The translations under genes were made by a program, and so were the position numbers. From Acidobacteriota bacterium (GTDB lineage Bacteria; Acidobacteriota; Aminicenantia; Aminicenantales; Saccharicenantaceae): a stretch of 64,000 nt of DNA. The notes below the pieces were generated by a model, which worked only from the letters and a program-made list of their open reading frames with translations, did not search any database and was not told the origin of the DNA. Numbering within the stretch: the stretch's first letter is position 1; each line of letters opens with the position of its first letter. The stretch is taken from positions 218,293-282,292 of the forward strand of contig JBDKSB010000012.1 in assembly GCA_039683095.1 (NCBI GenBank). Direction: 5' to 3'. Below are positions 21,368-36,651 of the stretch, piece by piece.

Positions 21368-22120
21368 TTACTTCCTCGATCCCTTGTCCGCGATCGCGGT
21401 CTTCTTGATGGCCCGGATCCCGGGGATGTCAGTCTGGTGCTTCATTGCCCGGACGACCTTGCCGATCGTGACGAGATCCGGAACCATGTATTTCCGCGGG
21501 ATCTTGTCCACGTCCACGATCTCGAAGTCCCAGAGCTCCCGGAGTGAGACGTTGGCCATCGGCTTCTCCGGGATGGCCGGCGCCGTGGCCTGGATCGCCT
21601 CGGCCTCCTTGCCGGCCTTCTGGACGATGTCTTCGGCCTCGCCGGCCTTATCCTGGTCGACGAGTTCCCAGGCCTTGTCCACCGCCTTCTCCGTGAGCCG
21701 CTTCGCCTCCTGCCGCTTGAGCTCGGCCTCGCGTTCGGCCTGGAATCTGAGCCGGTCCTGCTCCTGGAGGTAGTCCGCGATCTTCGGCTTGATGATGTCG
21801 AGGGCCTGGTTCGGCAGATCGGCGAACTTCTTCTTCTCCTCGAGGAGCGACTTGTGGAGTGCGTGGGCCCGGGAGATCTGAGGGTCGAACGTTTCGTCGA
21901 TCGACTTCAGGAGGCCCATAATGTCCTGCCGGAACAGGTCGGCCGCCGTCAGATCCTCCTGGGTCTTGATGACCAGGGCCCGGGCCTTATCGAGCGCCGA
22001 GCTCGAGCGGGCGACGATCGCCGTGATCGCCTTAGGCTCGGGCTTCGCCGGGAAAGGAGCCCCGGCCGCGGGCGCCGGGGACTCCTCGGGGAATATCATG
22101 TTGGAGGCAGGCGTGCTCAC
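21368..22120 (-). CDS. phage coiled-coil protein of the recombination operon
   Basis: A 250-residue protein starting with GTG at 22120, overlapping the ATPase stop (GTGA), with GGGAGG upstream. It is mostly coiled coil: DKARALVIKTQEDLTAADL, then LHKSLLEEKKKFADLPNQAL and a long Glu/Lys/Arg-rich helix (about 110-180). The C-terminal 70 residues (VSLRELWDFEIVDVDKIPRK) look folded. Proteins like this are frequent beside phage recombination genes but have no proven role. The neighbouring genes suggest a partner of the annealing/recombination ATPase. Confidence 0.7.
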   Translation of the reverse strand: MSTPASNMIFPEESPAPAAGAPFPAKPEPKAITAIVARSSSALDKARALVIKTQEDLTAADLFRQDIMGLLKSIDETFDPQISRAHALHKSLLEEKKKFADLPNQALDIIKPKIADYLQEQDRLRFQAEREAELKRQEAKRLTEKAVDKAWELVDQDKAGEAEDIVQKAGKEAEAIQATAPAIPEKPMANVSLRELWDFEIVDVDKIPRKYMVPDLVTIGKVVRAMKHQTDIPGIRAIKKTAIADKGSRK

Positions 22121-23172
22121 GAGGCCCTCCCGTTGCCGGCATCCTGGGCGGGCTTGGCCTTCAGATGTTCGGCCCAAGCATCGAGGTAGGAGACGACCAG
22201 GTCGGCCTCGTCCGAGGTCAGATCGTCAAGCTCGGTGACCTCGCGGTTCTTGGCTTTCATGACGTGGGCCGTGATGCCCTGCCAGATCGTCTCGTCCTTG
22301 CGGCCGAGGTCGTGGAGGGCCTTGATGCCGCGCAGGACCTTCTCCCGCTGCGTCGCGGTGATCATCTGCGGCCCGGGCTGCGGCGACGTCGTCGCGGCCT
22401 CGGGGAACTCCTCGGCCGGCGCGGGCGCCTGGGGCTGCGGCTTCAGAGCGGCGGCCGGCTTCGGCGCCGGGGCCTTCGCGCCCTTCAGCCACTTCATGAG
22501 CTTCGCTCCTGTATCCTTCGAGATTTTGAAGATCTGGCCGTCGAAGAGCGAAGTCCGGTCCTTGGAGGCGGCGGCGTTGTGATCCATCGCGATGTCGAAT
22601 ACCGTCGTGAACTCGTACTCCATGCCGTCGCGCTGGATCGGCGCGAGGCCGACTTTCTTCGGGACGGATTTGCCCTTGTCGTTCTGCTCGAGGACGTAAT
22701 CCTGTTTGCTCCGCATCGTGCAGATGACGTGGATGCCCGCCTGGAGGATCCGGGCCTTGAAGCGCTCCTGCTCGGGCGTGATCGTTGCCCAGTTCGTGTA
22801 GGAGTTGCCTCCCCGCTGGTCGAGGGCCGCTTTCTTGTCGAGCAGCCCGCCCTCCCCCGCCCAGGCGTGGGAGATTGAATCGATCAGGAGGACGTCATAG
22901 CCGGCCTTCTCGGCGGCCTCGATCGCCTCGGCGTACTTGACGATCGTGTAGGGCGGCTCGAGGTCCAGGACATCGAAGACGATGCCGGCCAGCGGGCCCT
23001 TGTCCATGTCGGCATAGAGGGAGGCGGACTTGTTCTCGGTGTCCACGACCGCGATCTTCTTTCCGAGCGCGGCCGCGAGGATGAGCCCGCTGAAGGTCTT
23101 GCCGGAGCCCGAGGGCCCGGTCAGGGCGATCTTCAGCGTGGCCTGAGTGCGTTCTGCCTTTTTAAAGGTCAT
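22117..23172 (-). CDS. phage RecA-like ATPase (AAA_24 / Sak4-type recombination protein)
   Basis: A 351-residue P-loop ATPase: Walker A GPSGSGKT at residues 19-26 and Walker B VLLIDS at 94-99. Other family marks are TEN near residue 45, ISHAWAG, and RSKQDYVLEQNDKGK. Residues 1-230 form the RecA-like core; a Pro/Ala linker and a helical C-terminal domain follow. Sak4-type proteins promote single-strand annealing with a phage SSB, and an SSB-tailed protein is encoded 24 bases upstream, which supports this. A nucleotide-binding protein of the same Pfam group without annealing activity is the alternative. Confidence 0.82.
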   Translation of the reverse strand: MTFKKAERTQATLKIALTGPSGSGKTFSGLILAAALGKKIAVVDTENKSASLYADMDKGPLAGIVFDVLDLEPPYTIVKYAEAIEAAEKAGYDVLLIDSISHAWAGEGGLLDKKAALDQRGGNSYTNWATITPEQERFKARILQAGIHVICTMRSKQDYVLEQNDKGKSVPKKVGLAPIQRDGMEYEFTTVFDIAMDHNAAASKDRTSLFDGQIFKISKDTGAKLMKWLKGAKAPAPKPAAALKPQPQAPAPAEEFPEAATTSPQPGPQMITATQREKVLRGIKALHDLGRKDETIWQGITAHVMKAKNREVTELDDLTSDEADLVVSYLDAWAEHLKAKPAQDAGNGRAS

Positions 23173-23196: not shown

Positions 23197-23484
23197 CTAG
23201 AACGGGATGTCGTCGTCGGGCCCGGGCCCAGCCCCTTCTTCGCCGGGGAACTCAGCCGGGCCGGCCTTTGCGGTGGCGCCCTCGGCCGAGGCTTCCTTCG
23301 GCGCGTTGAGGTAGAGGATGAAGTCCGGCTGACCGTCCTTCTCCTTGAAGCCGTTCTGGAACATCACGAGGTTGATGTCCGGAGAGAGGCCTCCGTTGAT
23401 GACGATCGAGACGTACTTCTTCGTCCCGTCCTGGGAGGTTCGGGCCCACCCGACTCCCACTTTCTTGCGCTTGGAGTCTGCCAT
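23197..23484 (-). CDS. small protein with SSB-type acidic C-terminal tail
   Basis: A 95-residue protein: a compact beta-rich N-terminal domain (KKVGVGWARTSQDGTKKYVS, then INLVMFQNGFKEKDG and FILYLN), a Gly/Ala/Pro linker and the C-terminal end GPDDDIPF. The end matches the DDDIPF tip of bacterial SSB proteins, which binds partner enzymes. It probably acts as a single-stranded DNA-binding or loading protein for the RecA-like ATPase encoded just downstream. The domain itself is not a standard OB-fold SSB by eye. Confidence 0.7.
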   Translation of the reverse strand: MADSKRKKVGVGWARTSQDGTKKYVSIVINGGLSPDINLVMFQNGFKEKDGQPDFILYLNAPKEASAEGATAKAGPAEFPGEEGAGPGPDDDIPF

Positions 23485-25242: not shown

Positions 25243-25995
25243 ATGTCTCTGAATATGGGGATTCGAGAGAACATCCGGAATGAAATCGCCAGACTTGGCT
25301 ATGGGACAAATCTGACCAAGTTCTGTCGGGAAAAAGGGCTTTCCACCGTCTACCTGAACCAGCTCCTAAACGGGAAGCGTCGGTACAACGAAGACCTGCT
25401 CAACAAGATCGCAAAAGCCCTGGGCATTCCAATCTACCAGCTCTTCATCGACGAGCCCGTCGTCCCGAAATCCCAGGCTGATAAAGAGCCGGCAATCGTC
25501 GAGATCTTCCCCGACCAGGAGACTCAATCCGAGTTCGCTAAGTTCAGCAGCCGTGACGATTTCCTTCCGATCCGGATCCTGGCGGACGCCGCATCGCTCG
25601 GACACGGCGCGATCGTCTCCCAGGAACGCACCGGCGGCTACGCCCTGATCTACCGCAGCGCCCTTCCGCGGAAGGCTCTCAAGCAGAAGAGGACGGCCGA
25701 GAAAATCGTCTGCCTCTTCGCGACGGGCGACTCCATGTCCCCTACCATTCAAGATAAGAGCCTCGTCGCGATCGACGTCGAGGACAAGGTCGAGATCCGG
25801 AACAAAAGGATCTACGCGATCGAGATCCCCGACGAAGGGGTCACGATCAAGCGGATTCTCCAGCATAACGACCATCTGCTCCTATTTGCGGACAACCGGG
25901 ATTTCCCGGGATATCCGCGAGCTCTGTGCCTAAAGGAACTGAACTACAACCCGATTTGCGGAAGGGTTGTCTGGACCTGGAATAAACTCGACTAG
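25243..25995 (+). CDS. CI-like phage repressor with S24 peptidase domain
   Basis: A 250-residue repressor. The N-terminal helix-turn-helix (about 23-65) has LTKFCREKGLSTVYLNQLLN, and the C-terminal LexA/S24-type domain has catalytic Ser164 in GDSMSPTI and Lys203 in GVTIKRI. It should keep the prophage silent and be inactivated after DNA damage. I see no plain Ala-Gly cleavage pair in the hinge before the catalytic domain, so self-cleavage may use another site or not occur. A second possible start is the Met at residue 5. Ribosome-site spacing is poor for both. Confidence 0.88.
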   Translation: MSLNMGIRENIRNEIARLGYGTNLTKFCREKGLSTVYLNQLLNGKRRYNEDLLNKIAKALGIPIYQLFIDEPVVPKSQADKEPAIVEIFPDQETQSEFAKFSSRDDFLPIRILADAASLGHGAIVSQERTGGYALIYRSALPRKALKQKRTAEKIVCLFATGDSMSPTIQDKSLVAIDVEDKVEIRNKRIYAIEIPDEGVTIKRILQHNDHLLLFADNRDFPGYPRALCLKELNYNPICGRVVWTWNKLD

Positions 25996-26414: not shown

Positions 26415-27200
26415 GTGGAAAAGGAACTTAAGAAGAAGTTGTCTACCTATGCTGGGATATTCAGGGAGGCCCAGACGCTCGGGAAAAAGGAAGCAGACAT
26501 CGTTATGTATATCGTGGAGTTCCTCAAGGACGCACTTAAGTACGATGTCTTCAAGGAAATCAGCAAAGAGTACCAAATCAAGGACAAGTACTGCGACATA
26601 GCCGTAAAGCTCGACGGGAAGGTCGAATTCCTTATCGAGGTAAAACAGCCTGGGATTAAGCTTTCGGACAAGCATATAGAACAAGCTGAGAACTACGCTA
26701 TGAGGAATGGCACAGAATGGGCGATCCTCACTAATGGCTGTGAATGGCGCCTTTACCACATGCAGTTGACCGATGATGGGATAGAGAGCTCGGTCGCCTT
26801 CCAGGCCGACCTGGTTGCCGAGTTCGGGGAAAACCCGGATGAAGTCGTTTCCAAGTTCGCACTCCTTCATCGGAAAAACTACGCCAAAGGCGCCCTTGAT
26901 GAATACTGGCAAAAGCTGAATCTCTTAACTCCCCAGTCCCTTCTTCAGGCCATATTCACCGAGTCCGTTTGCAGGACCATAGCTAGGGAATTAAACAGGG
27001 GAGCGAAGGTTCGGGTCGGGATCCAGGAAATTGAGCGAGAACTGAAGAACGTGCTGGATAAAAGTATTCTCGCTGAACTGGCTGACCTCAAGCTCAGGAA
27101 GAAACGAAAAGTAAAGAGGGGTCCCAGAAGGCCAAAAGAAACAGCAGGCCTAGCAGCTCCCGGAGAAGAGACGAAACCGGAAAATGAGCCAGAGCAATAG
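26415..27200 (+). CDS. stand-alone HsdR N-terminal-type nuclease domain protein
   Basis: A 261-residue protein. Residues 35-110 show the PD-(D/E)xK core of the type I restriction HsdR N-terminal domain: YDVFKEISKEY, CDIAVKLDG with Asp61, and IEVKQPG with Glu75 and Lys77. The QAENYA and WAILTNGCEWRLYHM segments follow as usual. No helicase part and no HsdM or HsdS partner is present. The C-terminus is basic and low-complexity. Such orphan domains occur in restriction-like defence; whether it cuts DNA alone is unknown. GGAGG precedes the GTG start. Confidence 0.8.
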   Translation: MEKELKKKLSTYAGIFREAQTLGKKEADIVMYIVEFLKDALKYDVFKEISKEYQIKDKYCDIAVKLDGKVEFLIEVKQPGIKLSDKHIEQAENYAMRNGTEWAILTNGCEWRLYHMQLTDDGIESSVAFQADLVAEFGENPDEVVSKFALLHRKNYAKGALDEYWQKLNLLTPQSLLQAIFTESVCRTIARELNRGAKVRVGIQEIERELKNVLDKSILAELADLKLRKKRKVKRGPRRPKETAGLAAPGEETKPENEPEQ

Positions 27201-28239: not shown

Positions 28240-29133
28240 ATGCGATACTACTTCACTAAGCGGCAAGCCGCCGCATTGAAGGATAAAAGGCTCACACCTA
28301 GCATACACATCCCTCTTCGTAATGCCATCCTCCGTGTGCTGCGCGATTTTTCGGATTATGATGGCCCCCCTGATTGCTCAGATAACTGGTCCTTTATAAA
28401 GGCCGAAGACAAACTTAAGAAATATTACGGGAGAGATTACCTTGTTGCTTTCGACAATAAGGGTCTACTCGTTTCGTCTCCTATTCATGATGTTATCTTG
28501 AGCGGGCTACCTGAACATGTCTTCGACTTCATCGAAGCCTGGTGCGATAGTGTGGATGAGCCGAGAGCAGCATCGTTCGAACACGAACTCAATTCGATTT
28601 TAGATATCCACGGTTCACCGTGGAGACTCCTGAATAAAACGATGATTCTCCTTGATTCGCAATATGTGCGAGAGGAGATAATCGCCAAGACACACTATCT
28701 TCTAAAGGAAGCTTCGGCTTCCGGGGCGCTGGAGGAGTTCGGAGAGGCAATTTCCTGCCTAACAGGCGGCCAGCCAAAAGAAGCGATTATCAACGCTCAC
28801 AAGTCTGTTGAAAGCGTTATGAAGAAATGCTTAGGGATTGAGAGGGCAAAATTCGGGACGCTGCTCACGCACCTTATAAAGTCGGGCATTATTCCAGAAT
28901 ATTACCAAGATTTTTTAATTCATTTTGAAAAGCTCGCCTTGGGCGCTGTCAAGGAACGAAATCAACCAGCTCGGGCGCACGGCCAGGGGGCCGAGCCTAC
29001 TAGCGTGGACCGCAGCCTTGCGGAATTCGCAGTGCATCTCGCTGGCGTAATTAATCTTTTCATCATTAAGCGCTGGATCGAATCTCGTCCAAAACAAGAT
29101 GAACCTCCGGCAGACAACGATATTCCCTTTTAG
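28240..29133 (+). CDS. Abi_C-domain (abortive infection-like) protein with SSB-type tail
   Basis: A 297-residue protein. The C-terminal part (about 180-280) matches the abortive-infection C-terminal (Abi_C) pattern: PKEAIINAHKSVESVMKKCL, then FGTLLTHLIKSGIIPEYYQD and KERNQPARAHGQG. The N-terminal part (1-170) is not recognised. The last eight residues, ADNDIPF with a Pro before them, copy the DIPF end of bacterial SSB proteins and of the phage's own small SSB-tailed protein. Its job may be to sense or reach replication complexes of invading phages. It is AT-rich compared with the flanks, as expected for acquired defence cargo. Confidence 0.75.
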   Translation: MRYYFTKRQAAALKDKRLTPSIHIPLRNAILRVLRDFSDYDGPPDCSDNWSFIKAEDKLKKYYGRDYLVAFDNKGLLVSSPIHDVILSGLPEHVFDFIEAWCDSVDEPRAASFEHELNSILDIHGSPWRLLNKTMILLDSQYVREEIIAKTHYLLKEASASGALEEFGEAISCLTGGQPKEAIINAHKSVESVMKKCLGIERAKFGTLLTHLIKSGIIPEYYQDFLIHFEKLALGAVKERNQPARAHGQGAEPTSVDRSLAEFAVHLAGVINLFIIKRWIESRPKQDEPPADNDIPF

Positions 29134-32007: not shown

Positions 32008-33456
32008 GTGGCGAGAATGTCTCCAGACGAAACAGTAACGGACAAACTCAGTTCAGTTGCAGGGATTACAAAAATTTCGGTAATCGTTCCCAAGAATCCC
32101 TTTGCACCACCAAACCTGCAAGGCAAATCCCAATGCTTATGTGCTCTGGACGTCATCGATCTGATGCGGTGGTGGCCCGGAGAACCGCACTCACCTCACC
32201 GTAAAGCCGATAAGGTCAGGGCTATCCAGAGATCGCTAGATTGGAAGCGTGTTGCAGAGATAGCTGCATATTTGCTGCAACAGGAAATCACCGACGCTCA
32301 AAATCGAATCAACAAGTATTTCAAGAAGATTTATCAGCCGAAGGAAAATGAACCGGGAAGACAATGGCCTCCGAGAATTAGTTCAGTGATTGGATATCAG
32401 CGCAGTTCCTTTCCTACTTTCTCAAATGTATTGCTTCACGTCACCGGGGCCAAGATAGACAGCAATCCTAACGAACCAAAAGCCGCAAATCTGGTCTTCA
32501 ATGAGAAGGACAAGAACCTGAACTTCACCGTAATAGATGGTCAGCATCGCATTAATGGCGCTTATTTTGCAGTAAACATAAGACGAGAAATGGATCCCGC
32601 CGCTAGTTGGGAGATTCCCGCAGAGGTGTTTTTGGACTTAGATCCTCCAGGAAGCGCCCCACGTATTCAAGCGCAGATTTTCATTGACGTGAATTTCTAT
32701 CAGAAGAAGGTCGACCGCTCGCTTGTGGCAGATCTATTCCCGACAGCCCGGATACCGCTTGAAGGCGAAAGGAAAGACGATGATTTGTTTCGGATAGAGC
32801 GCGCGCAAGACATCGGCCGCAGACTAATGCTCGAGACCGGCCCACTCGTCGGAATGATTCAAATCCCTGGCATTCGTTATGGAGTTAAGGATGTAATTAC
32901 GCTGGCCACGCTGAATAGCGCCATTCGGGATGTCCTCCCGGAGCTAGATGCACAGGGAATTCATAGCTTGGACGGCCAGACCGAATTTCTTGCACAGTGC
33001 CTCACCGCGTGGCTTGAGGCGTCAGGAAGATTCGAAAGCAAGCAGGGAGCATGTGGCACCGAGCTCACTCCGGAAAATGTGGCATATCAAGGCCGCATAT
33101 TGGTGTCGGTGCTTGCCTTAGTTCCCGCAATGATCTGGAGACTCAAGAAGGCAAGCGTTCCGCACTTGGTCTCCGATAGCGCTCTGGACGTCCTGATAAA
33201 GTGGCTAAGAAATGTCACCAAGCGCGCGGGCCTAATCGAAGATGGCATGTTTATAGGGAAGAAGAAGTTCAAGGCCCGTGGTTATTATGGAAGTGGAGGC
33301 ATAGGGCGCTTTCGGAATACCCTGTGGGCGGCCGTCGAAGGAACACACAGGATTACGGCTGTTACCAAGTCTGAACGGATCGCCAAAATTGCCGAGAAGA
33401 ACCGAGCACTCATAATGTCCGAACTTCACACGCAGCCGACTGATGCCACCAAGTAG
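32008..33456 (+). CDS. DGQHR-domain protein (DndB/DpdB-like), first gene of a modification-type operon
   Basis: A 482-residue protein with the signature FTVIDGQHRINGAYFA (DGQHR at 177-181). DGQHR proteins belong to the ParB/Srx-related group and include DndB (sulfur modification control) and relatives in 7-deazaguanine systems; they are thought to act on or regulate DNA modification. The N-terminal part (CALDVIDLMRWWPGE, then RAIQRSLDWKRVAEIAAYLL) and the VNFYQKKVDRSLVADLFPTA segment also fit the family. It overlaps the next gene by 14 bases. GC content is clearly below the structural genes. The exact role is not established. Confidence 0.82.
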   Translation: MARMSPDETVTDKLSSVAGITKISVIVPKNPFAPPNLQGKSQCLCALDVIDLMRWWPGEPHSPHRKADKVRAIQRSLDWKRVAEIAAYLLQQEITDAQNRINKYFKKIYQPKENEPGRQWPPRISSVIGYQRSSFPTFSNVLLHVTGAKIDSNPNEPKAANLVFNEKDKNLNFTVIDGQHRINGAYFAVNIRREMDPAASWEIPAEVFLDLDPPGSAPRIQAQIFIDVNFYQKKVDRSLVADLFPTARIPLEGERKDDDLFRIERAQDIGRRLMLETGPLVGMIQIPGIRYGVKDVITLATLNSAIRDVLPELDAQGIHSLDGQTEFLAQCLTAWLEASGRFESKQGACGTELTPENVAYQGRILVSVLALVPAMIWRLKKASVPHLVSDSALDVLIKWLRNVTKRAGLIEDGMFIGKKKFKARGYYGSGGIGRFRNTLWAAVEGTHRITAVTKSERIAKIAEKNRALIMSELHTQPTDATK

Positions 33457-34300
33457 TTCAGACCTTCAAATCGCCGCGATGTTCAGCATTCTTCAGAAGA
33501 GGAATGCTTCAGGTTCTCTCCCCGCCGCAGGAGCTTTGTCTGAAAAGCTGGCCAATCTCGCTGATATAACAACGGGAGATTCCGCAGCGGTCGGTTCGGA
33601 CGTACTCGGCCTTTTTGCTACCGCCTCGGTCGAGATGTGGCTCCGCGCAGTTCATAGTTTTTTAATATCTGCTTCCCTAACTGACGCAAGTCCTATTTGG
33701 GCGTCCGTGGCTGGATACTATTCCAGTCACTATTCCGTCCGGGCTTTTGCACATCTGCTCGGCTACTTCTTGTTGGCTAAGACAAGAAAGATGGCTCTTC
33801 GCGTTGAAGTGGACGGGAGGCAATTCCTCTGCCATATGCGGCCAAAGAAGTCGGGAGATGCCGAACATAAGTTCTATTGGAGATCTGTAAAGGAACACAG
33901 TCCGTTCGATAGCGATCCGCTCTATAACAGAAATGACGAGGATCAGGGAAACGGATCGGATTCGGGACACAGATGTAGGGCTAATTATCTGGATCATATC
34001 GACAAGTTTCCGGTCTTTGCCGTTCTTGACGAGGCAGCTCTAATTCAAAGGGTCCAGAGGATCGCGAATATGCACTATTCAGATCCTCCCATTCCCAGAG
34101 TAGACTCATACCCCGATATCGCAAATGTTCAGCTCATTGCCTATCATAGAATGGTCGGTTTTAGGAGCTACTTAGATAATCGGGTAGCTGGGAATCGGTT
34201 TTGGGAAATATATAGAAATCCGAGTTGGAGCCATAAATATCTTGATTTCCAGGTAGTAGAGCCCAGTTTCGTATCCTCATATAGAGAACATCTCCCATGA
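33443..34300 (+). CDS. unknown middle protein of the DGQHR-methyltransferase operon
   Basis: A 285-residue protein. Residues 55-115 are helical with an HEPN-like flavour (ASVEMWLRAVHSFLISASLT, then GYYSSHYSVRAFAHLLGYFL). The exact HEPN R-x4-6-H motif is not present, since R-AFA-H has only three residues between, so a toxin call is not justified. The remainder contains a segment rich in Asp, Asn and Gly (SDPLYNRNDEDQGNGSDSG) and an aromatic C-terminus (FWEIYRNPSWSHKYLDFQ). It overlaps both neighbours, which ties it to the same system. Confidence 0.65.
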   Translation: MPPSSSDLQIAAMFSILQKRNASGSLPAAGALSEKLANLADITTGDSAAVGSDVLGLFATASVEMWLRAVHSFLISASLTDASPIWASVAGYYSSHYSVRAFAHLLGYFLLAKTRKMALRVEVDGRQFLCHMRPKKSGDAEHKFYWRSVKEHSPFDSDPLYNRNDEDQGNGSDSGHRCRANYLDHIDKFPVFAVLDEAALIQRVQRIANMHYSDPPIPRVDSYPDIANVQLIAYHRMVGFRSYLDNRVAGNRFWEIYRNPSWSHKYLDFQVVEPSFVSSYREHLP

Positions 34301-35520
34301 AATATATGGGGTCCAAGCGCTGGATGCTGAAGAATGGACTTGGTGATCTTATTTGCGCACAAGCGAAGAGTGCAACGCGTTTCATCGATCTTTTTACCGG
34401 ATCGGGAGCTGTAGCCTGTTTTGCAGCTCAGCGGACTTCTTTGCCGGTGAAAGCCTATGACCTACAGGGATTTGCGGTTGTCCTAGCTGAGGCTGTGATC
34501 GGCCGCGACAAGGCGTGCGACGCGAATCAAATATGGGCGGACTGGTTCGATTCGGCCCAAAGGTTTCGAAAAGAGCATAGAATCCCCAGAGCAGAAAAAC
34601 TGACCCGCTCGGAAGTAGCAAAGTGTCGGGCTTGGAGTGCAGCCCGACAGGGTCAACCGATAACCAAGGCATACGGGGGGTATTATTATAGCCCCTTGCA
34701 GGCTATCTGGATTGATTCCTTTCGAAAGGCCCTCCCCAAGACTGACCCCGAGAGTAGCGTAGCTCTTGCCGCCCTAATCGATGCTGCGAGCCGGTGCGCT
34801 GCTGCGCCGGGGCATACAGCTCAGCCATTCCAGCCGACTCAGACGGCAAAACGCTTTCTTCAGGAAGCATGGGAAAAGGATATTACGAACTACCTAAAAC
34901 GAGCCCTGATTAGCATTGCCTCCCAGCATGCCAACGCAAAGGGATCGGCGCAAATTGCGAACGCGAACGACGCCGCACAGTCAATAGAGAAAGGCGATCT
35001 TGTTTTTGTCGATCCGCCCTATTCTGGCGTCCAATATAGCCGCTTTTACCATGTCCTTGAGACTATCGCGAGAGGAACTTCGAGCGACGTCTTCGGGACA
35101 GGCAGGTACCCAGCTCGAGATGAACGTCCCCAATCGAAATATAGTAATAAAACGCAATCACGCGGCGCAATAAAGGAGCTGCTCAAGATATTGGCAAATC
35201 ACGAAGCAACTGTAATACTGACCTTTCCCGATCATGTCTGTTCAAATGGCCTATCCGGGGGAATTATCAGGAGGGCCGCGGCGCCATTCTTCGAGGTTCA
35301 TCGAAAATCAGTGAAAACCAGATTCAGTACGCTGGGCGGGAACTCTGCCGAACCGGATAAGAATGGCGGACGTCAATCCAGGCAGACTGCCAAGGAGCTC
35401 ATCCTGGTTCTAGCTCCCACAAAGAAGGCTGATTCAGGCTTAGGAATGAAAGATACCAAGGAACAGTCAGACGTGGAGCCAGATGCCCGGCACGGCCGCC
35501 GACTCCGTGTGCTGACCTGA
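34297..35520 (+). CDS. D12-class adenine-specific DNA methyltransferase
   Basis: A 407-residue enzyme: the KYMGSKRWM opening, SAM motif I DLFTGSGAV at 31-39 and catalytic DPPY at 239-242 (FVDPPYSGVQYSRFYHVLE) show a Dam-like class D12 N6-adenine methyltransferase. It is longer than typical Dam because of an insert between the motifs (about 60-230), which may be a target-recognition or partner-binding region. It overlaps the previous gene by four bases (ATGA). Together with the DGQHR protein it forms a candidate modification or defence unit. It ends nine bases before the integrase start. Confidence 0.87.
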   Translation: MKYMGSKRWMLKNGLGDLICAQAKSATRFIDLFTGSGAVACFAAQRTSLPVKAYDLQGFAVVLAEAVIGRDKACDANQIWADWFDSAQRFRKEHRIPRAEKLTRSEVAKCRAWSAARQGQPITKAYGGYYYSPLQAIWIDSFRKALPKTDPESSVALAALIDAASRCAAAPGHTAQPFQPTQTAKRFLQEAWEKDITNYLKRALISIASQHANAKGSAQIANANDAAQSIEKGDLVFVDPPYSGVQYSRFYHVLETIARGTSSDVFGTGRYPARDERPQSKYSNKTQSRGAIKELLKILANHEATVILTFPDHVCSNGLSGGIIRRAAAPFFEVHRKSVKTRFSTLGGNSAEPDKNGGRQSRQTAKELILVLAPTKKADSGLGMKDTKEQSDVEPDARHGRRLRVLT

Positions 35521-35529
35521 GTCTGAACC

Positions 35530-36651
35530 GTGCCCCGCCGCTCTGAAGGCCCTGTTCTCAATAAACAGACGGGCTACTATTTTCTGAGCCTGCGAATAGG
35601 GTTCCCGCCGAACCGCCAACGAGTTCGTTTTTCCCTCCACACGCGAGATCGCGCCCGCGCAGTCATCCTTTTTGAGCGGGAATACAAGAGGCTTTGGGCC
35701 GAGTATTACGGGGCCCGCCCTAACCGCCGGCCAGGGGAGCTCCCGGACTTCGAGAAGGCCGCCGAAGAATACGTCCGGTACGAGCGCGACGTCCGCAGGG
35801 TCAAGGGCTGGGGAACGATTGAAATGCGGCTGGGCGTCGCGTCCGGAATCTTCGGCCCGGCCCGCCGCCTCGGGACGATCGGCGACAAGGACTTTGCGGC
35901 GCTCGATGCGTCGCTCCGGAAGGATGGCCGCGAGCCCGGGACAGTGAACCACTACATGAAGCTTCTCAAGAGCTTCTTCACATGGGCCATCGACAAGGGC
36001 TATCACCCGGGGCCGAACCCTGCCCGGGCGGTCCGGCCTTACGTCATCGACCAGCGGCGCCGGGCCTATTCGGCCGAGGAGGTCGAGCGCATCCTGGCGG
36101 CCGCCCGCGCGATCGAGGCCGGGGCCAGGCCCCAGGACGGGATCATGCGGCACGCCGAACGAATTGTCCGGCTGCTGCTCCTGACGGGCATGCGCGCCGG
36201 CGAGCTCCTGAACCTCAAGTGGTCCGCGATCCGCGGCGACAGGATCGTCCTCGAGCGGACCGAGACCAAGCAACGCCGGGAGAAGACGATCCCCGTCACT
36301 CCGGCGATACGTACGATCCTGGACGGACTCGAGCGGAAGGACGATTACGTGCTCCCTCTTCGCCGGCGCAGGGGAATCATGGAGCCGGCATATGCCTACG
36401 GTCTCATCCGGGCGATCCGAGAGAAGACGGGGATCTCGGACTTCATCCTCCACGGCCTGCGCCACACCGCCTCGACGATCATGGTCTCTGAGGCCCTGGG
36501 AAAGGGAGTCGGCCTGGCGGACATCATGAGGATCCTCGGCCATTCCCAGGTCCAGACGACACTCCGATACCAGCACGCCGACCTTGAACGCATGAAAAAG
36601 GCGATGCGGGTGCTCGGGAAAAAGACAACAGAACGGCCCGCTTCATCTTGA
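35530..36651 (+). CDS. tyrosine-type phage integrase
   Basis: A 373-residue recombinase from a GTG at 35530. An N-terminal arm-binding part (PVLNKQTGYYFLSLRIGFPP) and a core-binding SAM-like domain (FEKAAEEYVRYERDV) precede the catalytic domain with Arg222 (LTGMRAGELL), His308-x-x-Arg311 (ILHGLRHTA), His338 (GHSQVQTT) and Tyr347 (LRYQHA). The enzyme inserts and, with an excisionase, removes the prophage. It is the last prophage gene, so the attachment site should lie just beyond it. Confidence 0.93.
   Translation: MPRRSEGPVLNKQTGYYFLSLRIGFPPNRQRVRFSLHTRDRARAVILFEREYKRLWAEYYGARPNRRPGELPDFEKAAEEYVRYERDVRRVKGWGTIEMRLGVASGIFGPARRLGTIGDKDFAALDASLRKDGREPGTVNHYMKLLKSFFTWAIDKGYHPGPNPARAVRPYVIDQRRRAYSAEEVERILAAARAIEAGARPQDGIMRHAERIVRLLLLTGMRAGELLNLKWSAIRGDRIVLERTETKQRREKTIPVTPAIRTILDGLERKDDYVLPLRRRRGIMEPAYAYGLIRAIREKTGISDFILHGLRHTASTIMVSEALGKGVGLADIMRILGHSQVQTTLRYQHADLERMKKAMRVLGKKTTERPASS

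Follow-up and report, generated by a model that had tools for sequence, protein, structure and literature searches.

The window analysed here, a 64,000-nucleotide stretch of Acidobacteriota DNA, contains a prophage that carries a member of the AbiJ-NTD4 HEPN abortive-infection family, and the C-terminal tail of this protein appears, with good support from sequence comparisons, to be a selected mimic of the SSB tip. This support comes from the likeness of a Halanaerobium tail to its host SSB and from the specificity of the tip genome-wide. We consider it reasonably probable that the protein is a single-protein abortive-infection effector, in which docking of the tip in an SSB-tip pocket would place or trigger a dormant HEPN RNase at sites of phage replication. 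The family itself is already known, and the paper describing it makes no mention of SSB (PMC3710099). The original prediction named no earlier Abi protein with such a tail, and our search of the open-access literature likewise found no earlier description of an SSB tip on any Abi or HEPN protein; as far as that literature shows, an SSB-tip mimic on an abortive-infection protein is new. The relevant features of the window are as follows.

22117..23172, minus strand: AAA_24 or weakly Sak4-like phage annealing protein, adjoining the gene for the 95-residue protein
23197..23484, minus strand: phage protein of 95 residues ending in GPDDDIPF, with a weak DUF736 match
25243..25995, plus strand: CI-type repressor (HTH and S24 peptidase), left border of the cargo region
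28240..29133, plus strand: AbiJ-NTD4/HEPN abortive-infection protein with an SSB-like C-terminal tip, 297 residues
28249..28686, plus strand: AbiJ_NTD4 domain, residues 4-149 (Pfam PF18863, 38.8 bits, above the cut-off of 34)
28705..29085, plus strand: HEPN domain, residues 156-282, from predicted-structure comparison (VIA-align, fold over residues 156-283)
28957..28980, plus strand: HEPN motif R240-x6-H247, fitting the R-x4-6-H pattern
29086..29112, plus strand: short charged/proline linker RPKQDEPPA, residues 283-291, coil in the model
29113..29130, plus strand: SSB-like tip DNDIPF, residues 292-297
35530..36651, plus strand: phage tyrosine integrase (Pfam PF00589, 2.4e-22), right border of the cargo region

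The AbiJ open reading frame runs from an ATG to a TAG, and its product terminates in KQDEPPADNDIPF, that is, in PADNDIPF. The protein resembles the AbiJ-NTD4 HEPN family (type CBY_0614, PMC3710099; PADLOC PDC-S32) in its AbiJ_NTD4 domain, its C-terminal HEPN domain with R-x6-H, its single-gene organization and its mobile-element setting; membership in this family suggests a protective role. It differs from most members (the classic STM4504 type) in being tailed. The Abi_C-type C-terminal domain originally proposed holds in part: the region is Abi_C-like and is predicted to adopt a HEPN fold, but the Pfam Abi_C match stays below its cut-off (18.4 bits against 24). Matches to DUF7014 (24.4 bits, cut-off 27, which the Geothrix and Halanaerobium relatives pass) and to NCBIfam STM4504_CBY0614 (71.5 bits against a curated cut-off of 150, over residues 115-276 in the C-terminal half only) also fall short. 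The PADLOC phage-defence candidate model PDC-S32, which gives no cut-off, matches residues 78-217 only (E 1.6e-8), and is matched nearly full length by the tailed relatives L012, L148 and L023. In the predicted structure (pLDDT 87.7), the top VIA-align rows are all HEPN domains (Z 12.0 to 9.5), including sacsin 3o10 (12.0), 2hsb (12.0) and TT1696 1ufb (11.5), followed by HepT-type toxins, Csm6 and AbiV; a search for a solved structure of a sequence relative found none. In family alignments H247 and G248 are invariant and the R/N position is nearly so. Given this motif and what is known of the HEPN family, the domain is probably a metal-independent RNase.

The gene is indeed prophage cargo, as originally proposed, since it sits in the stretch between repressor and integrase. 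Because head, portal, terminase, connector and tape-measure genes lie to the left, in addition to the CI-type repressor and the integrase, we regard the element as a prophage. GC content is lower in the cargo stretch (0.50-0.59) than in the right flank (0.64-0.73). The 95-residue SSB-tailed protein of the phage itself was also recovered on the minus strand; it has no PHROG match and no recognised OB domain. The product of the adjoining gene matches Pfam AAA_24 (1.5e-20), phrog_1366 (2.2e-85) and the Sak4-like phrog_124 (9e-7), and the 95-residue protein is a probable phage SSB-like partner of Sak4. This arrangement of a tip-bearing small protein beside a Sak4-like gene recalls the SSB-Sak4 pair of phage HK620 (PMC5928155), where the SSB tip recruits Sak4; that pair is phage recombination machinery, unlike the defence protein of the window.

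The resemblance of ADNDIPF to SSB-type ends stood up to inspection of the whole 3.29-Mb assembly, where the DIPF-stop pattern (GAYATHCCNTTYTRR) occurs at three places only: the host ssb gene (C1:215529), whose product terminates in GGPDDDIPF, the gene for the 95-residue phage protein and the AbiJ gene. The reversed control pattern occurs nowhere in the same genome. Of 2,533 distinct ORF ends in the collected DNA, 34 fit [DEN][DE][ILV]PF, and besides AbiJ_NTD4 proteins and SSBs the only carriers are the phage SSB-like protein and a further small family, represented by a neighbour gene in Ensifer. As with the bacterial SSB tip (DDDIPF), the likeness consists of a variable linker followed by acidic residues and a strictly C-terminal [ILV]PF. 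Unlike bacterial SSB, the window protein has no OB fold (within the genome, PF00436 is matched by the host ssb alone) and attaches the tip to a HEPN protein; a HEPN dimer would likely present two tips, versus the four of an SSB tetramer.

Homologues, many of which stem from MAGs, carry comparable ends. Tailed homologues with 24-35% identity occur in Acidobacteriota, Alphaproteobacteria, Halanaerobium and Leptospira, and their ends read [DE][DE][ILV]PF after a variable linker. Our Acidobacteriota sample comprises 396 genomes, including that of Geothrix fermentans (L002, identical to L060), and 21 of them hold 22 AbiJ_NTD4 proteins. Five of these 22 have a [DEN]DIPF tip: the window protein, the Geothrix protein (FDEDIPF), two proteins from genomes of the same family as the window genome (LEEDIPF, SKEDIPF) and a protein with a different HEPN subtype (WLDDDIPF). 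The corresponding count is about 2 among 2,501 other ORF ends (binomial p about 1e-11, with proteins treated as independent). A scan of GTDB contigs, run with a query alignment from which tails had been removed beforehand, still returned tailed proteins from Mesorhizobium (DDDIPF, DEIPF), Chelativorans (DDDLPF), Magnetospirillum (DELPF), Geothrix and Halanaerobium (FDVPF), with EEIPF also among the tips. Leptospira plasmid proteins end in TDDEIPF and TNDEIPF.

Most relatives are tailless and stop directly after the HEPN helix; in the classic STM4504 type, found on plasmids, viruses and chromosomes, the last HEPN helix is the terminus. The original prediction took an acidic DIPF end missing from the closest homologues as the mark of a chance match. 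Recurrence of the end in several phyla and at four places in the tree excludes such a match, although L003 (the nearest relative by path) and L004 lack it. When the family tree is built with the tip residues left out, the window protein's group (98% support) contains ten tailed, four tailless and two degraded members. Overall, the tip occurs at at least four separate places in the tree, where long branches leave exact numbers of gains and losses unsure, and it is more clustered than in any of 500 shuffles. As some of the nearest relatives are without it, the tip seems to be readily gained or lost and inessential to the family. Tailless near relatives thus make it an optional module and, since most members, L003 included, have no tail, the family's defence should not generally need it. 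In the alphaproteobacterial set, identity is 65% in the tip, 40% in the linker and 73% in the core. A search of IMG/VR for viruses with close relatives of the tailed clade found none; for the classic untailed type, 17 viral relatives were found.

That an acidic tail merely happens to end in IPF is extremely improbable: relatives without the tip do exist, but all three occurrences in the genome are meaningful, the background is very low, and the tip turns up again in distant relatives belonging to four bacterial phyla and at four places in the tree, which led us to reject a chance match and to treat the tip as a real feature.

Several side observations concern individual loci. Degraded tips occur in tailed clades, namely DEDIPS, DDAALF, DEEI followed by the stop, and DDDNPF (L136, L061, L069 and L037), DDAALF belonging to a Rhodospirillales protein and the DEEI end to Telmatospirillum; they give the impression of a tip undergoing loss or change. 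Chelativorans carries tandem overlapping AbiJ_NTD4 genes (L067:2195-4002), the first tailless and the second ending in ADDDLPF. A frame change interrupts a Nitratireductor homologue (L075:5911-6910), the last frame of which still ends in ADDDLPF.

The likeness to SSB reaches beyond the tip in Halanaerobium congolense, where the Abi protein ends in DDWDEDFDEEFNEEDFDVPF and the host SSB in DDFDAQFDDNFDADDFDVPF (the tails read SDDWDEDFDEEFNEEDFDVPF and QDDFDAQFDDNFDADDFDVPF, respectively). The two proteins share 12 of their last 22 residues, which only 1 in 100,000 shuffles attained; when the last four positions are left out the similarity is weaker, with 8 identities in 18 (attained by 573 in 100,000). 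At the DNA level 47 of 63 bases agree, which is not decisive for copying of the tail from ssb because both tails are AT-rich and acidic. Both proteins have a tail of about 20 residues that is acidic, rich in F and D, and unusual (L062:5962-6942, L101). Three Mesorhizobium proteins have the same EIPF end as the SSB of their host. In other cases the tips belong to the SSB type without being letter-for-letter copies of the host SSB, with mismatches such as DELPF versus DDDIPF in Magnetospirillum and EDIPF versus DEVPF in genome G381. The idea that Abi and host SSB tips covary strictly was thus set aside, as such matching is seen only in Halanaerobium and in the three Mesorhizobium proteins.

SSB biology is a plausible sensing point because phage SSB acts as the trigger of other defence systems. 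Hna is one such system. AbpAB (PMC10732053) and Retron-Eco8 (PMC12887533) are triggered in the same way. All three resemble the window protein in linking defence triggering to SSB biology, but what they sense is the phage SSB protein, while in the window it is the defence protein that bears the SSB tip. In the mechanism that we favour, AbiJ-NTD4 would be a regulatory or sensor domain and HEPN the effector, and the C-terminal peptide would imitate the SSB tip and dock into the basic/hydrophobic SSB-tip pocket of at least one DNA-replication or recombination protein, as the known role of the SSB tip suggests. Docking would put the dormant HEPN dimer where SSB-dependent phage DNA replication proceeds; alternatively, an SSB-seeking phage protein would bind the effector's tip. 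The NTD would then free the RNase activity and the cell would be stopped. HEPN dimerisation and the trigger are likewise putative steps. Our best inference is that the protein is recruited to SSB-dependent phage replication or triggered there; the tip probably tells the enzyme where, or by what, to switch on during infection. If so, this would be one more entry in the growing list of defence systems watching SSB-coated DNA, and an immune effector would have acquired a copy of a hub peptide, a bacterial counterpart of the integrated decoys in plant receptors. For the AbiJ-type HEPN proteins, a widespread family, a conserved SSB-tip mimic narrows the candidate partners to a small set.

We considered three readings of how the tip would act. 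We tentatively place first the possibility that it docks on host SSB-interacting proteins (RecO, RecQ, PriA, ExoI, DnaG and HolC are candidates), parking the effector at replication or repair sites while the NTD senses the phage. Consistent with this, all tailed members have a canonical tip sequence, host SSBs of the same genomes have tips of matching type, and one tailless member comes from a genome with an atypical SSB tip (G328, DGDPF); genome G056, however, pairs a canonical SSB tip with a tailless relative. Somewhat more doubtful is the possibility that phage proteins needing the SSB tip, such as Sak4, Red-beta/Orf-type mediators, and phage primases or loaders, bind the Abi tip instead and thereby trigger the HEPN RNase. 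Phage recombinases do use SSB: binding of phage HK620 Sak4 to ssDNA covered by SSB depends on the SSB tail (PMC5928155), and lambda Red-beta is an SSB binder whose recombination is lost once that contact is disrupted (PMC8303780). In addition, the carrying phage has its own tip protein adjoining a Sak4-like gene, the Halanaerobium tail reproduces that of its host SSB far beyond the minimal tip, and the tip is an add-on at separate tree places; on the other hand, strict matching to the host SSB is confined to few cases. Such a bait fits equally well as the fork-recruitment, phage-SSB competition and tethering proposals made originally, and would mean a HEPN suicide RNase fused to a host hub peptide, the tip having been added repeatedly to AbiJ-NTD4 proteins.

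Autoinhibition is a weaker rival than either, and in our view an unlikely one. Here the acidic hydrophobic tip would lie on the protein's own NTD or basic HEPN groove until displaced by phage or host SSB tips in infection. The SSB tip does act on SSB's own OB core, and the window protein's tail is modelled at intermediate confidence (pLDDT 70-83), so that the tail may dock on the protein itself. Autoinhibition by an acidic tail is also documented for Hfq (PMC5606850). However, autoinhibition alone predicts neither the exact C-terminal PF nor the SSB-like I/L/V variation, tailless relatives are common, and the last 20 residues of the long-linker relative L066 are predicted to be unfolded (pLDDT 46-51), as in SSB.

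SSB-like tips (EDEDIPF, LDDDIPF, LDDEIPF and PDDEVPF) also occur in an unrelated alphaproteobacterial family of about 250 residues (L146:2057-2800; L149 and L150:2992-3753; L151-L155), for which no Pfam family scores over cut-off. In Ensifer, a gene of this family overlaps the end of a tailless AbiJ_NTD4 gene (L146). In Methylobacterium currus, another follows a gene with GGVRHG in its C-terminus, and profile comparison of this neighbour with the AbiJ_NTD4 family was negative. Supply of the tip in trans to tailless AbiJ proteins by a partner gene was considered and not retained, Ensifer being the one clear case and the partner family lying mostly elsewhere.

The cargo region of the window holds other genes besides AbiJ. 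A stand-alone HsdR_N-type protein of 261 residues is encoded at 26415-27200. A gene run at 32008-35520 encodes a DndB/DGQHR-domain protein, a protein without family match (33443-34300) and an adenine methyltransferase, and is possibly a second defence or modification cluster of the prophage.
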